Under the pieces are notes generated by a model. That model was given only the letters and a program-made list of their open reading frames with translations. It had not been told where the DNA came from and did no database searches. Below are positions 17,492 through 40,190 of a DNA stretch of 59,210 nt, one piece after another. Both the position numbers and the translations under genes were made by a program. The stretch is from a virus, in the IMG/VR virus record IMGVR_UViG_3300035670_000236, positions 1-59,210 of that record; one strand, given 5' to 3'. The first letter of the stretch is position 1. The number at the start of each line of letters is the position of its first letter.

Positions 17492-17579
17492 AATTTTCTC
17501 CTAGTCAATTGAGCGAGATTGCTCACTTTTATCTATAGAGTTTCAATCAGTTTTAAACTAAGTCAAATCATGAATAAGT

Positions 17580-17748
17580 GCTAGTTGATTCTGTTGCCAA
17601 GTTCAACTAGCAAAACTCCGGTCAGCGTTTAGGCTGCCAGTGCAAATCTTTCATCGTTTGCATTTACTTCGTTTGCTTGATTTACGGTCATCGCCTACCG
17701 TGCTGTCCACTCTGTTACTCTTTGCCCTGTCGAAACCAGGTCCGGCCC
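17580..17748 (-). ncRNA. ssrA: tmRNA, coding piece (permuted ssrA) with tag ANDERFALAA
   Basis: Starts G1 at 17748 with GGGCCGG, then GGTTTCGACAGGG, the conserved tmRNA 5' end. The tag frame at 17629-17661 reads A-N-D-E-R-F-A-L-A-A-stop, a beta/gamma-type ANDxxxALAA degradation tag. The 3' end is estimated after a 9-bp hairpin (17580-17588 with 17603-17611). Its first seven bases pair with the acceptor piece encoded upstream, so the order is acceptor, spacer, coding: a circularly permuted, two-piece tmRNA. The G3:U70 pair, the alanine identity element, is conserved. Confidence 0.92.
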
Positions 17749-17820
17749 ATCATAAGCATACTCGGAAGATTTATTTACCGCTGACTATTACTCTTCCCCA
17801 GCGTCACTCTAGTATGCTTA
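17749..17820 (-). other. Internal transcribed spacer of permuted tmRNA with 12-bp inverted repeat
   Basis: Joins the acceptor 3' end to the coding 5' end. A perfect inverted repeat CATAAGCATACT/AGTATGCTTATG (17751-17762 and 17811-17822) brings the two ends together and even includes two bases of the CCA. It would be removed by RNase P and 3' processing. Confidence 0.85.
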
Positions 17821-17884
17821 TGGTGGACCGGGCGGGAATCGAACCCGCGTCCAGAACACTTTTCTCTTTGCTTCATACAGCAAT
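17821..17884 (-). ncRNA. ssrA: tmRNA, acceptor piece (permuted ssrA)
   Basis: Ends with encoded CCA (17821-17823), discriminator A, acceptor strand CCGGTCC, and a canonical T-arm GCGGG-TTCGATT-CCCGC (17832-17848). The acceptor strand pairs with GGGCCGG of the coding piece over 7 bp including one G-U. The 5' end near 17884 is set by the late promoter box at 17890-17897. Permuted tmRNAs are known from alphaproteobacteria, some cyanobacteria and some betaproteobacteria. Confidence 0.9.
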
Positions 17885-17888
17885 ATTT

Positions 17889-18665
17889 TTATTTATATCG
17901 CTTAACCGTATCTATAATTGCATCCTGCACATTTCGCATCTTATAGACAGACTCCAGTTTCTTGGTACTCAATACACAATTACTTCTTGGTGCTTTTGTG
18001 ATTGCCCTAAACTCATCATCAGTCATCCATTCTTTGTTTAGTGCAAGTGCATCAGAAAGTTTTCTTGTGGTTGTGCTGCCAATATTTGTTACATTGTAAA
18101 TACCATACGCAGGTTTTTTAACAATGAAATGGGTAACACAATCTGCTAGGTCTTCTACTTGAGTTACACTATTTTCTTTGTCGATAAGTTTATCATAAGC
18201 CTCTAGTTTTGTCAAGAGATTTTTCTGAGTTCTATCTGGTCCGAATGGCATACGAATACGGAACAAATAAGACTTGTTCATGTATGGTTTGAGTAGCGTC
18301 TGTTCAAGTCCTTTACATGCACTATAGAATGATGCATTGTTGAAGGTAAAGTTTGGGGCATCTTCTTCCGTAAATTCTTTTTCGTATCCTGTATATACGC
18401 ATCCACTAGAGATATGGATGATTGGTCCGTTAAAATTTTTTTCCAGTTCAAGTGGATATAGAATATTACCTTGAACACATTCGTCTTTGTGTATTTCACA
18501 CGCATCAACGTTTGGTACTCCTGTGTATCCTGCGGCATTAATTATAAACTTAACGCCTCTTGGAATTACATCTTTGTGACTAAGCCAAAGATACTTAAAG
18601 TCATCACTTGACAACTTCTTCGCAATATACTGTCCAATATAACCGTGACCAATCAGTCCAATCAT
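17889..18665 (-). CDS. NAD(P)-dependent sugar reductase/epimerase (RmlD-like SDR)
   Basis: 258 residues. N-terminal Rossmann motif MIGLIGHGYIGQYIAKKL, then FIINAAGYTGVPNVDAC as in RmlD (dTDP-4-dehydrorhamnose reductase), and the catalytic Y-x3-K in SFYSACKGLEQ (about residue 135). Likely makes or changes a nucleotide-sugar for the neighbouring glycosyltransferase. Its stop overlaps the late promoter of the tmRNA, and its start overlaps the MazG-like gene by 4 nt. Confidence 0.85.
   Translation of the reverse strand: MIGLIGHGYIGQYIAKKLSSDDFKYLWLSHKDVIPRGVKFIINAAGYTGVPNVDACEIHKDECVQGNILYPLELEKNFNGPIIHISSGCVYTGYEKEFTEEDAPNFTFNNASFYSACKGLEQTLLKPYMNKSYLFRIRMPFGPDRTQKNLLTKLEAYDKLIDKENSVTQVEDLADCVTHFIVKKPAYGIYNVTNIGSTTTRKLSDALALNKEWMTDDEFRAITKAPRSNCVLSTKKLESVYKMRNVQDAIIDTVKRYK
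17890..17897 (-). promoter_or_regulatory. Perfect T4-type late promoter TATAAATA
   Basis: Exact TATAAATA, overlapping the stop codon of the reductase gene (TAT AAA TAA). The expected start, about 6 nt downstream, matches the 5' end of the tmRNA acceptor piece. It would drive tmRNA and pqqA late in infection. Confidence 0.75.
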
Positions 18666-25241: not shown

Positions 25242-25402
25242 TACGCCTCCTTAGAAAGTGCATTTGCACCAGAATACATGATAGCAAGACCAGCCATTGC
25301 CAACAATGTGCCTTGCAATAGAGTAGCCGATTCAGTCTCAATACCGCCAACAGCGCCAGCAGTAATCAGAATGCCTAGTAAAAATCGAATCGAACCTTTC
25401 AT
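25241..25402 (-). CDS. Small membrane protein (53 aa)
   Basis: Opens MKGSIRFLLGILITAGAVGG with one or two hydrophobic segments (LLQGTLLAMAGLAIMYSGAN). AAGGAGAAGGTCA is its ribosome site, formed by the end of the previous gene (ATGA overlap). The pattern is like small membrane proteins at 27876 and 28433 and of marine T4-like phages. Confidence 0.7.
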   Translation of the reverse strand: MKGSIRFLLGILITAGAVGGIETESATLLQGTLLAMAGLAIMYSGANALSKEA

Positions 25403-25557
25403 TGACCTTCTCCTTTAGCAGTCACTTCGCGGTCTTGCAATTCAGCACCAACAGCAAAGTAAATTTGTTCAAGATATTCTTTCGGCATTTTATCAATACT
25501 CTGATAAAAGTCGGAAGCAACCATCATCAAAATTTCTTCTTCGTTATAGTCATACAT
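25399..25557 (-). CDS. Small acidic protein (52 aa)
   Basis: Opens MYDYNEEEILMMVASDFYQS and ends REVTAKGEGQ; the final codons double as the ribosome site of the next gene. Its start is coupled to the upstream stop (TAATG). Role unknown. Confidence 0.65.
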   Translation of the reverse strand: MYDYNEEEILMMVASDFYQSIDKMPKEYLEQIYFAVGAELQDREVTAKGEGQ

Positions 25558-34729: not shown

Positions 34730-36151
34730 TTAAAGAACTTTGTAGCGTTCATCCATGATGGTTTTCATCATGACTGCTACAGGAGTGAAGTTATCGATAT
34801 CTCCCGATAGGATAGGCTTCACAATCGCTGGCGAGAAGCCAGACACTAGCGCAGTACCACTCTTATCGAACTTGACTGGCGCGTTGCCGTAAGATGCGTT
34901 CAGGTTCCAGAACACCACTTGTGGTACTTTGTAACCGGCTGCAACATACTTGCGTTCAATCATTTCGATTGCAGAATTGTCATGCTTTACGCATTGGTCA
35001 AACTGCATATCGGACAGAATCAATACCATTGCTGGCATTTCTTCTTGTGGTACGTTACCCTTAACCGCAACATCAAGAATCTTGTTGAATGCTGCGTGAA
35101 GGTTAGTGTTCATCTCCCACTTAGATTTAACCATTTGGTCAATCTTCTGGTTGATGTTACCCTTCATGTGTACCAACTCTGGCTTGTGCGAGAAAGTTAG
35201 GAACGTGTCCTTGAACTTTCCAGTGTTCTTGTCTGCAAGATACAGTCCCAGAGAGACTGCAACTTCAAGGCAAGAAAGTTTTGTGTTCTTTCCTGCTGGA
35301 CAAGTCATAGAGCCAGATACGTCAACAAGAGGAAGGATGTTTGCATCACCAACATAGTTAGGCAATGCTTCCCATTGCTTTTGAATCAAGTCCATTTCTG
35401 TCTTGTCAAAAGAAACGCCATAAGAGTTGATGCGACCTTTTAGCACATCGTATGGATATGCAACAGATGCATTTACTTTTACAGTCTTGTCTTCACCCTT
35501 TACAAGCGAAGCAACATACTCGGCATACTTTTGAGTATTACGGTTGAATGCTTTCTTGTAACGAGCCGATGCTACAGAAGGCACATGGCTGAAGTTGATG
35601 GAATCCCATTCTTTAGCGCACATGTCTTGTTCTACAACCTTAGTCAATTCGACTAGGGACTTACGATAGAACTTAGGCGACATTCCGAAGAATTCGCGAA
35701 TCTCAACAGCAAGTTTACCTTGACGAGGAGTCCACTTTGCAGCCAAGCCATTACGCTGGCGCAGAGCATCACCAAGCATGGTAAATGCTTCAGACTTTAG
35801 TTCCTTGTCATTGAAGACAAAGATATCGTCCCAACGTCCCAATTCAGGAACTTTACGAAGCAAAGCCTTTGCTGCTTCTTTATCGTTCTTTTCTAGATAT
35901 ACTAGAATGTCACGAAACAATTGGCGTTCACCAGCACCACCACGGGCATCACGAAGCCATGCCGCTACGCGCAAAGCAAGGTCGCGGTTCTCTGCCATTG
36001 CAGCAGAGAATGCTGGAACGATGTTCTTACCGCGGGACGCACCAGCGTTATAGAACAGGTCAACTACAGCGTTGGCAGTTGACTTACGAGCCTTCATACC
36101 ATTTGCGGTACGAGCCTCTTGATTTACTACTGCATTTACAAAAGTGTTCAT
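34730..36151 (-). CDS. Ro60-like TROVE/vWA protein (DUF2828-like)
   Basis: 473 residues. N-terminal helical-repeat part (about 20-240) with NAGASRGKNIVPAFSAAMAE and LRDARGGAGERQLFRDIL as in TROVE/DUF2828 proteins; C-terminal von Willebrand A domain from about residue 268 with the MIDAS motif LPLVDVSGSMTCP and later LILSDMQFDQ. Bacterial Ro proteins form a ring that binds misfolded RNA and Y RNA and guides RNA decay. It lies in the middle of the tRNA array behind a 480-nt leader with structured RNA motifs, which fits an RNA partner. Family seen; RNA role inferred. Confidence 0.88.
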   Translation of the reverse strand: MNTFVNAVVNQEARTANGMKARKSTANAVVDLFYNAGASRGKNIVPAFSAAMAENRDLALRVAAWLRDARGGAGERQLFRDILVYLEKNDKEAAKALLRKVPELGRWDDIFVFNDKELKSEAFTMLGDALRQRNGLAAKWTPRQGKLAVEIREFFGMSPKFYRKSLVELTKVVEQDMCAKEWDSINFSHVPSVASARYKKAFNRNTQKYAEYVASLVKGEDKTVKVNASVAYPYDVLKGRINSYGVSFDKTEMDLIQKQWEALPNYVGDANILPLVDVSGSMTCPAGKNTKLSCLEVAVSLGLYLADKNTGKFKDTFLTFSHKPELVHMKGNINQKIDQMVKSKWEMNTNLHAAFNKILDVAVKGNVPQEEMPAMVLILSDMQFDQCVKHDNSAIEMIERKYVAAGYKVPQVVFWNLNASYGNAPVKFDKSGTALVSGFSPAIVKPILSGDIDNFTPVAVMMKTIMDERYKVL

Positions 36152-36164
36152 AGTATTTCCTTTT

Positions 36165-36229
36165 CAACAGGTTAATTTTTGCGTTTACAATTACAAGTTG
36201 TATGCTTTAGATGTTGCTGAACTTAACCT
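36165..36229 (-). ncRNA. TTCAGCAA motif copy R1b with anticodon-arm-like hairpin, in the Ro leader
   Basis: Closing helix AGGTTAA/TTAACCT (36223-36229 with 36169-36175), then GTTCAG-CAAC, and after the helix GTTG, which can pair with CAAC as a pseudoknot. The insert has a 5-bp/7-nt hairpin TACAA-CTTGTAA-TTGTA (36186-36202) identical in form to a tRNA anticodon arm (UGU). The helix ends about 12 nt before the AAGGAAA ribosome site of the Ro-like gene, so it may control its translation. Confidence 0.65.
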
Positions 36230-36235
36230 AAAAAA

Positions 36236-36356
36236 CAACAGAATAGTTTTCTTCTTTTTGTTTTATATGAGAACTCGAAACTCATATCGTCCGGCGAACC
36301 AGACCGTCTTGATACGGCAATGAAGCCGTTAAGTAAATTGTTGCTGAACCTATTCT
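36236..36356 (-). ncRNA. TTCAGCAA motif copy R1a with three-hairpin insert
   Basis: Closing helix AGAATAG/CTATTCT (36350-36356 with 36240-36246), then GTTCAG-CAAC, with GTTG after the helix. The insert has three consecutive stable hairpins: ACGGC/GCCGT, GTCTGG-TTCG-CCGGAC (UUCG loop) and ATATGAG/CTCATAT with a TTCGAGT-containing loop resembling a tRNA T-loop. Tandem with R1b; a candidate Y-RNA-like partner of the Ro protein. Confidence 0.65.
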
Positions 36357-36616
36357 TTCATCAAAAAAATAACGGGATGATCGGGTTGGTGTTAAACTGG
36401 TTCTTAAACCTCGGTGCCCCTTTCGGCGTATCCCCACCGTAATCAAATGGATTACCATTATTTCGTAGAATTATCTACATCAGATTTAATTCAAGTTTAC
36501 TCTCTAGCCGTTTAAAAATTACCTCTTACGAGGGTCCTCCTGTATCACGGCACTCTATAGTCATGTGATTTTTAGAGTTTGCTGTAGTCATCCCTTTTTC
36601 ATCATCAATACTGTGT
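36357..36616 (-). ncRNA. Structured 5' leader of the Ro-like transcript
   Basis: About 260 nt without an ORF. Visible elements on the minus strand: GCCGT/ACGGC closing a CCTC-GTAA-GAGG tetraloop hairpin, CGGTG/CACCG enclosing CC-GAAA-GG, and GGTT-TAAG-AACC. Starts just after the promoter at 36617-36645. Function unknown. Confidence 0.5.
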
Positions 36617-36836: not shown

Positions 36837-36912
36837 TGGCGCGCCCGGAGGGACTCGAACCCCCATGAGACACTTTAGAAGAGTGTTGCCTTATCCTTTA
36901 GACTACGGGCGC
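36837..36912 (-). tRNA. trnR: tRNA-Arg(UCU), normal order
   Basis: 76 nt; anticodon arm ACACT-CTTCTAA-AGTGT. Same anticodon as the permuted tRNA at 38980-39054 but different body. Confidence 0.92.
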
Positions 36913-38878: not shown

Positions 38879-38953
38879 TGGCACCCAATGAGAGAATCAA
38901 ACTCCCAACTCTTCGTTCGTAGCAAAGTGTGATATTCATTTCACCAATCGGGT
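38879..38953 (-). tRNA. trnR: tRNA-Arg(ACG)
   Basis: 75 nt; anticodon arm CTTTG-CTACGAA-CGAAG, acceptor ACCCGAT/ATTGGGT, discriminator G; T-loop TTTGATT differs slightly from TTCGA. Confidence 0.88.
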
Positions 38954-39082
38954 ATTATATAACAGGATACGTTTTTAGTGATCTACCATTGATCTATTTT
39001 TCCCTAGTGGAAAAAGTTGGAGTCGAACCAACAACCTCTCGCTTAGAAGGCGAAATATTTTTTGCTGAATGTATCCTAAAAC
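38954..39082 (-). ncRNA. TTCAGCAA motif copy 1, carrying the permuted tRNA
   Basis: Starts right after the CCA of tRNA-Leu(UAG) and ends at tRNA-Arg(ACG). Closing helix AGGATAC/GTATCCT (39071-39077 with 38964-38970), then ATTCAGCAA, insert (38980-39054), and GTTAT after the helix. The same flanks, with a different insert, form copy 2 at 40119-40190. Confidence 0.75.
38980..39054 (-). tRNA. trnR: Circularly permuted tRNA-Arg(UCU)
   Basis: On the minus strand the order is anticodon arm TTCGC-CTTCTAA-GCGAG (39054-39038), variable AGGTT, T-arm GTTGG-TTCGACT-CCAAC (39032-39016), 3' acceptor strand TTTTTCC (39015-39009), loop ACTAG, 5' acceptor strand GGAAAAA (39003-38997), T8 A9, D-arm GATC-AATGGTA-GATC (38994-38980). 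Joined in circular order this is a complete cloverleaf: 7/7 acceptor, 4/4 D, 5/5 anticodon (one G-U), 5/5 T pairs, GG in the D-loop. The break lies between positions 26 and 27. CCA is not encoded. Normal-order reading would lack a D-arm. Confidence 0.82.
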
Positions 39083-39159
39083 TGGTGCCCAAGGCGGGAC
39101 TCGAACCCGCAAGATTTAGTTTCTAAGACTAACATGTATACCAATTCCATCACCTGGGC
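39083..39159 (-). tRNA. trnL: tRNA-Leu(UAG) with short variable loop
   Basis: 77 nt. D-arm is of Leu type (TGGAATTGGTATACATG), anticodon arm TTAGT-CTTAGAA-ACTAA, but the variable loop has only 5 nt (ATCTT) instead of a class II arm. CCA encoded. Confidence 0.85.
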
Positions 39160-39710: not shown

Positions 39711-39785
39711 TGGTGGTGATAAGTGGTATCGATCCACTCTCCTCGGCTTATGAAACCGGTACGCATCCGTCTACGTCATATCACC
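39711..39785 (-). tRNA. trnM: tRNA-Met(CAU), elongator
   Basis: 75 nt; anticodon loop TTCATAA, fully paired acceptor GGTGATA/TATCACC, so elongator rather than initiator. T-loop ATCGATA is unusual. Confidence 0.85.
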
Positions 39786-40118: not shown

Positions 40119-40190
40119 ATAAAAATAACAGGATACGCTTTTTGCTTTATTTCCAGTAAAGTTTTTTAATTGCTGAAAGTATCCTAAAAC
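40119..40190 (-). ncRNA. TTCAGCAA motif copy 2 with anticodon-arm-like hairpin
   Basis: Starts after the CCA of tRNA-fMet. Closing helix AGGATAC/GTATCCT (40179-40185 with 40130-40136), then TTTCAGCAA, a 5-bp/7-nt hairpin CTTTA-CTGGAAA-TAAAG (40145-40161) of exact anticodon-arm form (GGA), and GTTAT after the helix. Same flanks as copy 1. Confidence 0.7.

Follow-up and report, generated by a model that had tools for sequence, protein, structure and literature searches.

We analysed a 59,210-nt stretch of viral DNA (IMG/VR record IMGVR_UViG_3300035670_000236, positions 1 to 59,210; hereafter the window), in which a 129-nt spacer on the minus strand of a tRNA cluster carries a tRNA-Arg(UCU)-like sequence with its two halves in reverse order. 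This permuted element is very probably a phage Y-like RNA, which belongs to a subclass of the bacterial-type Y RNAs linked to DUF2828 genes. The element folds as a complete permuted cloverleaf enclosed by an outer stem, its helices covary among relatives, and the family to which it belongs is associated in phage genomes with a gene for a Ro-like protein.

Layout and fold of the permuted element

The spacer RNA is flush with both neighbours: tRNA-Leu(UAG) has its CCA end at 39083, and tRNA-Arg(ACG) begins at 38953. Excision of the two flanking tRNAs would free the spacer RNA. Its parts are the following.

38954..39082, minus strand: whole spacer RNA, 129 nt
39071..39077, minus strand: 5′ strand of the outer stem, AGGATAC (sequence, RNAfold; stem positions S1-S7 covary across relatives)
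39062..39067, minus strand: conserved CAGCAA motif directly inside the outer stem, preceded by ATT
39038..39054, minus strand: anticodon arm TTCGC CTTCTAA GCGAG, 5/5 pairs with one U-G (ARAGORN, RNAfold)
39047-39045, minus strand: anticodon UCU in the loop CTTCTAA
between anticodon arm and T arm, minus strand: variable loop AGGTT
39016..39032, minus strand: T arm GTTGG TTCGACT CCAAC (sequence, Rfam alignment, RNAfold)
39015-39009 (3′ strand) and 39003-38997 (5′ strand), minus strand: acceptor stem, 7/7 pairs, no CCA
39008-39004, minus strand: 5-nt loop ACTAG capping the acceptor stem, placed on the closed CUA loop in the Rfam alignment with YrlA
38996-38995, minus strand: U8-A9
38994-38980, minus strand: D arm GATC AATGGTA GATC, loop with G18G19 (sequence, Rfam alignment, RNAfold)
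38979, minus strand: A26
between A26 and the outer-stem strand GTATCCT, minus strand: CTAAAAAC
38964..38970, minus strand: 3′ strand of the outer stem, GTATCCT, followed by GTT (CUGU end)

An earlier note on this DNA had described a permuted minus-strand layout with fully paired stems and canonical loops, including the anticodon loop CTTCTAA. When the coordinates were re-checked, the sequence was as described and RNAfold returned exactly the predicted structure. The minimum free energy fold contains all five helices (-29.8 kcal/mol, z -3.05), and none of 200 shuffled sequences was equally stable. ARAGORN did not call the element in its native order; after rotation it recognised a complete cloverleaf, tRNA-Arg(tct), with the halves reversed as in permuted tRNA genes. 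The Rfam tRNA model gave a partial match without the D arm (30.5 bits). A strict architecture scan yielded one match in the window, and no match was obtained from Markov shuffles totalling 5.9 Mb. These results confirm the circularly permuted tRNA-like sequence as real.

Covariation and tertiary structure

The same gene order could be left behind by recombination between tandem tRNA genes, if a duplication occurred and the outer halves were then lost, and the element would then be a functionless relic. Chance matches do arise between adjacent real tRNAs: with the cluster's 27 real tRNAs in shuffled order, about 1% of the arrays contained one. The relatives of the element speak against such an origin. 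In the closest one (L289, fetched by its protein) the D stem GATC/GATC is replaced by GCGC/GCGC, two compensatory pairs relative to the window. Parsing of permuted CAGCAA elements gave 109 with the T-acceptor-D module, a tRNA-like anticodon arm being present in 46 and lacking in 63. Nearly all helix positions of these 109 show several pair types with both sides changed, and the sequence is otherwise free. The covariation that the earlier note had proposed to look for was thus found in the acceptor, D, T, anticodon and outer stems. Pairs were counted from the parsed structures; MAFFT misplaces the acceptor/D region of one relative (L150).

The Levitt pair 15-48 was not used by the scanner. Among 83 CAGCAA elements, 33 have A-U and 26 have G-C at these positions; in elements linked to TROVE genes (see below) A-U accounts for 15/25 and G-C for 10/25. 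This alternation argues that the tRNA-like elbow is selected for and truly formed. With family-wide covariation, a 15-48 tertiary pair and a fixed flanking frame, a functionless relic is extremely improbable.

A repeated stem-CAGCAA frame

The frame around the permuted tRNA (stem, CAGCAA and CTGTT) is present in five copies in the window, the permuted element included. The order is TTTTAG(G/A)..., 2-3 bases, CAGCAA, payload, pairing strand and CTGTT. The four sister elements, which have no tRNA body, are listed below.

40130..40185, minus strand: second element, same stem and CAGCAA, 56 nt
36374..36594, minus strand: third element, stem GGGATGA/TCATCCC, 221 nt
36240..36356, minus strand: fourth element, stem AGAATAG/CTATTCT, 117 nt
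36169..36229, minus strand: fifth element, stem AGGTTAA/TTAACCT, hairpin loop CTTGTAA, 61 nt

The only payload of the 56-nt element is the hairpin CTTTA CTGGAAA TAAAG, which resembles an anticodon stem-loop. Scored against the Rfam model of Dictyostelium Class I RNA, this element reached 32.3 bits (cut-off 41.5). The 221-, 117- and 61-nt elements are consecutive and lie immediately upstream of the open reading frame (ORF) 34730-36151, the last of them stopping 18 nt short of its start codon. The earlier note had AGGATAC/GTATCCT holding the free ends of the tRNA together. The stem exists, but it is not a mere clamp, being part of a repeated, motif-bearing element.

A stem-enclosed spacer at 40584-40448 on the minus strand (CTACCATATA/TATATGGTAG, with ACTACAGCGGAA near the 5′ side) is a possible divergent member of the frame.

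The neighbouring DUF2828 protein is predicted to have a Ro60-like fold

34730..36151, minus strand: ORF of 473 aa, DUF2828 + DUF7788 (vWA), Ro60-like fold, proposed RNA partner (profiles and model)

The ORF matches PF11443 and PF25043 as well as PHROG 850, which is annotated 'RNA-binding protein'. The Pfam TROVE profile (PF05731) matched neither this ORF nor anything else in the 59 kb window. Profile comparison of the DUF2828 protein with phage TROVE proteins (hhalign) gave a probability of 95.8% (E 7e-9). An AlphaFold2 model was obtained with a predicted local distance difference test score of 74. In a Foldseek search with this model Ro autoantigen (E 8.8e-7) and Rsr were the sole matches below 0.001. 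The model aligned with Ro60 along almost its full length (Z 16.4, 386 residues); among unrelated chains none did better than a vWA domain (Z 10.4, 172 residues). Both parts of the Ro60 fold, the HEAT-like ring and the vWA domain, are found in the model. Judged by this modelled fold, the DUF2828 protein would take the place of a TROVE Ro60 orthologue near the element. Homologues in mycobacteriophages already carry the annotation 'Ro-like RNA binding protein'.

The RNA family across phages

A DUF2828 scan matched at least 567 relatives, and 80 viral loci were taken. Strict frames numbered 248, distributed over 77 of the 80 loci; the reversed sequence contained 15. DUF2828 loci from bacterial genomes had few strict-motif elements (22 vs 9 in reversed sequence). 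The association was also seen from the side of the RNA: records picked by the RNA alone contained DUF2828 in 22/30 cases, compared with 0/38 of TROVE or control records (Fisher 1.5e-11). TROVE/Ro60 was present in 20/24 records with non-CAGCAA permuted tRNA mimics and in 0/11 CAGCAA records (Fisher 3e-6). The TROVE-linked permuted mimics are YrlA-like, lack CAGCAA, and several have longer outer stems. DUF2828/CAGCAA and TROVE/non-CAGCAA records are separate, therefore two Ro-like proteins accompany two kinds of permuted tRNA-like RNA.

Frames were found in the isolated phages KVP40, Synechococcus BUCT-ZZ01 and Stenotrophomonas DLP_6, in Cronobacter phage S13 (one of them permuted) and in Listeria phage LP-125, where three stand in tandem. 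In mycobacteriophage JoeDirt a permuted mimic lies ~110 nt past the Ro-like gene. DUF2828 is present in 673 INPHARED records. In a blastn search against named phages only the neighbouring tRNA-Leu was matched. A generic pattern scan of viral contigs was dominated, among the matches listed, by tandem ordinary tRNAs, and true cases were separated by running the structure scanner on fetched loci.

GCAGCAA-bearing permuted tRNA-like arrays were seen near DUF2828 in Lachnospiraceae contigs of gut Clostridia (L412, L427 and L400). In a further record (L054, 5700-6330, minus strand) tandem permuted tRNA-like elements occur together with normal-order tRNAs Lys and Phe, each inside its own 8-11-bp stem. 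This record contains neither the CAGCAA motif nor DUF2828/TROVE, and the array is possibly a third system.

Decoding by the element is unlikely

A rival reading, close to that of the earlier note, is a true permuted tRNA-Arg(UCU) gene, whose transcript would be cut at G1 and A73, receive CCA, be ligated at 26/27 or stay nicked, and decode. The canonical arms and loops, the anticodon loop and the acceptance of the rotated form by ARAGORN are as expected of such a gene, and the UCU anticodon is kept in the closest relatives (L289, L150, L333, L359). The 3′ end is not: CCA is encoded by all 27 ARAGORN-called tRNAs of the window, and not by the permuted element. Its acceptor stem is closed by five nucleotides, and relatives have TTCG, CCTG or TAAT in this place, the loops often being 4-7 nt. 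NCCA stands at the acceptor-loop site in just 12/83 elements, perhaps as traces of descent from tRNA genes. These features, with an anticodon arm that is optional in the family, speak against the proposed maturation by RNase P, CCA addition and ligation.

A nicked decoding tRNA is likewise not supported. Bacterial arginyl-tRNA synthetase uses A20 as an arginine identity element. In the window copy the base following G18G19 is U, as it is in 59/81 family members whatever their anticodon. Furthermore, an ordinary tRNA-Arg(UCU) is already encoded at 36837, as the earlier note had pointed out, and the flanking frame is common to elements without a tRNA body. A decoding tRNA is unlikely, because CCA is missing, the acceptor loop is closed and the anticodon arm is dispensable; we give this reading a very small probability.

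Anticodon-loop payloads and the decoy reading

Of 162 distinct short payloads, 50 can be folded into an anticodon stem-loop that has U33 and a purine in position 37, as against 0.5 in shuffles; the payload sequences come partly from related phages and are not independent events. The anticodon-like 7-nt loops (CTTGTAA 16, CTTTTAA 9, and others) have mostly U36 and A37. U36 occurs in 36/50 of the anticodon-stem-loop payloads and in 27/46 of the permuted elements with an anticodon arm. Such loops favour a target that reads the anticodon loop; this target may be a modification enzyme or a defence nuclease that cleaves tRNAs.

The payloads fit a decoy or sponge, a role that the earlier note had also raised, in which the element and the stand-alone anticodon stem-loops would bait tRNA-cleaving defence nucleases while the Ro-like protein stabilises or presents them. 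A precedent exists in the tRNA-like domain of Salmonella YrlA, for which PMC7790460 proposes competitive inhibition of an anticodon nuclease. Many elements, however, have no anticodon loop at all, and we regard the decoy as a doubtful, though not negligible, candidate. It overlaps the interpretation as a Y-like RNA and differs from it in function only.

Proposed function and its weighing

As a Y-like RNA the element would dock on the ring of the DUF2828 protein by its outer stem and CAGCAA motif, which are common to all members. The effector would be the permuted tRNA, which comprises T arm, acceptor, D arm and, here, a full anticodon arm and would be exposed on the Ro-like ring. If the mimic works as in Rsr/YrlA, a nuclease or another tRNA-binding enzyme would be tethered or gated by it, a role to which we give an even chance; alternatively, the mimic would occupy tRNA-targeting nucleases, which seems the less probable of the two. 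In bacterial YrlA, according to PMC8394870, the stem binds Rsr and the tRNA-like domain binds PNPase.

The element has the YrlA layout: a terminal stem and a permuted T arm, closed-loop acceptor and D arm, and its core can be aligned with the Rfam YrlA model. Several observations weigh against its assignment as a Y-like RNA. With the Rfam YrlA model (RF02553) it scored 30.7 bits, well below the gathering score of 69; the elements of TROVE phages were also below it (best 50.7). The model weakly matches 9/14 control genomes too, and such weak matches were not counted as evidence by themselves. DUF2828 is lacking in 8/30 of the RNA-bearing records, several of them fragments, as viral records often are. 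The counts of paired cells are biased since the scanner demanded pairing; the diversity of pairs is still informative. The near-perfect anticodon arm exceeds the needs of the known YrlA-type tether.

More broadly, and tentatively, we suggest that DUF2828 proteins and stem-CAGCAA RNAs may together form a Ro-like ribonucleoprotein system of their own, one that is common among large phages. Its RNA would be shared with dictyostelid Class I RNAs, and in a contest over tRNAs during infection the system would hold out parts of tRNAs as bait or as docking handles, the smallest being a bare anticodon stem-loop and the largest a whole permuted tRNA. That phage Y RNAs can mimic tRNAs is already known; the DUF2828 subclass, the stand-alone anticodon stem-loop mimics and the likeness to dictyostelid Class I RNAs appear to be new. 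An isolated oddity, a permuted phage tRNA, is replaced by a testable RNA-protein system in isolated phages, and many 'RNA-binding protein' annotations can now be given a predicted RNA partner whose motif is recognisable. The tRNA mimicry of Y RNAs now takes in a full four-arm tRNA as well as bare anticodon stem-loops. The frame also offers a candidate explanation for the Dictyostelium Class I RNAs, the function of which has been open since 2004.

Other structured RNAs in the window

All of the following are on the minus strand. The ~105-nt spacer between tRNA-Glu and tRNA-Ala (40991-40886) is enclosed by a 12-bp stem, ATGTCTACTGTA/TGCAGTAGACAT, outside of which is a second stem, GTACCATTTGA/TCAAATGGTAT (41003/40874); it is a structured RNA without CAGCAA. 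At ~40446-40370 there is a probable tRNA-Tyr (loop CTGTAAA) that ARAGORN did not call. Its D-arm region is odd in that the segments CTCTAC and GTAGAG, on the 5′ and 3′ side of the anticodon arm respectively, can pair with each other. A tRNA with a CAU anticodon at 39714-39785 (Rfam 45.5 bits) was likewise not called by ARAGORN. Between tRNA-Leu and tRNA-Ile, 39430-39240 is a GC-rich, strongly structured non-coding stretch (..GGGGCGACCTAGAAAACGTAGCC..), for which no Rfam match was obtained at gathering score.

Comparison with known systems

A literature search found no paper describing DUF2828 with such RNAs. A comparable published system is that of Listeria phage CKA15, where abundant RNAs upstream of the Rsr-like CKA15_055 were proposed as Y RNAs (PMC12282133). 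CKA15_055 is the DUF2828 homologue, and its start is closely preceded by three CAGCAA-stem elements (~25,289-25,553). The top transcripts of the infection were mapped to the non-coding region OR088597.1 26,236-26,727, within the tRNA cluster upstream of the Ro-like gene (PMC12282133). We do not equate these most abundant RNAs with the CAGCAA elements, as the one region with published coordinates does not coincide with them and was not recognised as a CAGCAA frame by the scan. Neither a motif nor a family is described in the account of the CKA15 Y RNAs in PMC12282133, and tRNA mimicry is not described there either.

Algae and archaea have permuted tRNA genes in which, as in the element, the 3′ half comes first. 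The products of these genes mature to ordinary tRNAs by bulge-helix-bulge splicing and ligation (PMC3978253). The phage element, in contrast, is broken at 26/27, its frame is shared with non-tRNA elements, and it bears no sign of maturation.

The window also encodes a two-piece tmRNA (transfer-messenger RNA), which fits the betaproteobacterial model.

17571-17928, minus strand: two-piece permuted tmRNA, RF04321 140.9 bits, tag ANDERFALAA

The tmRNA resembles the element in its permuted order and in the loop joining the acceptor strands. The loop of tmRNA is processed to expose a chargeable 3′ end, whereas the loops of the element family are short, varied and without CCA.

The dictyostelid Class I RNAs (RF01414) are similar in having a short terminal stem of variable sequence, a CUGU end and a variable inner part. 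They have an 11-nt unpaired motif beside the 5′ strand with conserved T3, C6, C9, A10 and A11, and short members are ~42-65 nt (PMC7919456). The phage frame agrees with this description in its short terminal stem with compensatory changes, the adjacent 11-nt motif and the CUGU end (PMC7919456). Phage copies scored 22-35 bits with RF01414, below the cut-off of 41.5. Full-length sub-cut-off matches were present in 10/16 DUF2828 records, 0/14 TROVE records and 3/15 others (Fisher 4e-4). Unlike the phage RNAs, Class I RNAs are eukaryotic, a tRNA-like payload is not described for them, and a DUF2828 partner is not reported in PMC7919456. Common descent of the two is possible, judged by these sequence similarities.

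Bacterial YrlA (RF02553) with Rsr/Ro60 is also close. The earlier note knew of no permuted tRNA in a phage. YrlA-type Y RNAs, which are tRNA mimics, are however known from bacteria and mycobacteriophages, as stated in PMC8394870 and PMC12282133. The element and YrlA have in common the stem joining the ends, the permuted T-acceptor-D module, the closed acceptor loop and a nearby gene for a protein of Ro60 fold. They differ in the partner, which in the phage is DUF2828 and not TROVE, in the shorter outer stem with CAGCAA and a CTGTT end, and in the many copies per phage. Descriptions of YrlA liken it to the D, T and acceptor arms of tRNA; the copy in the window adds a complete anticodon arm.
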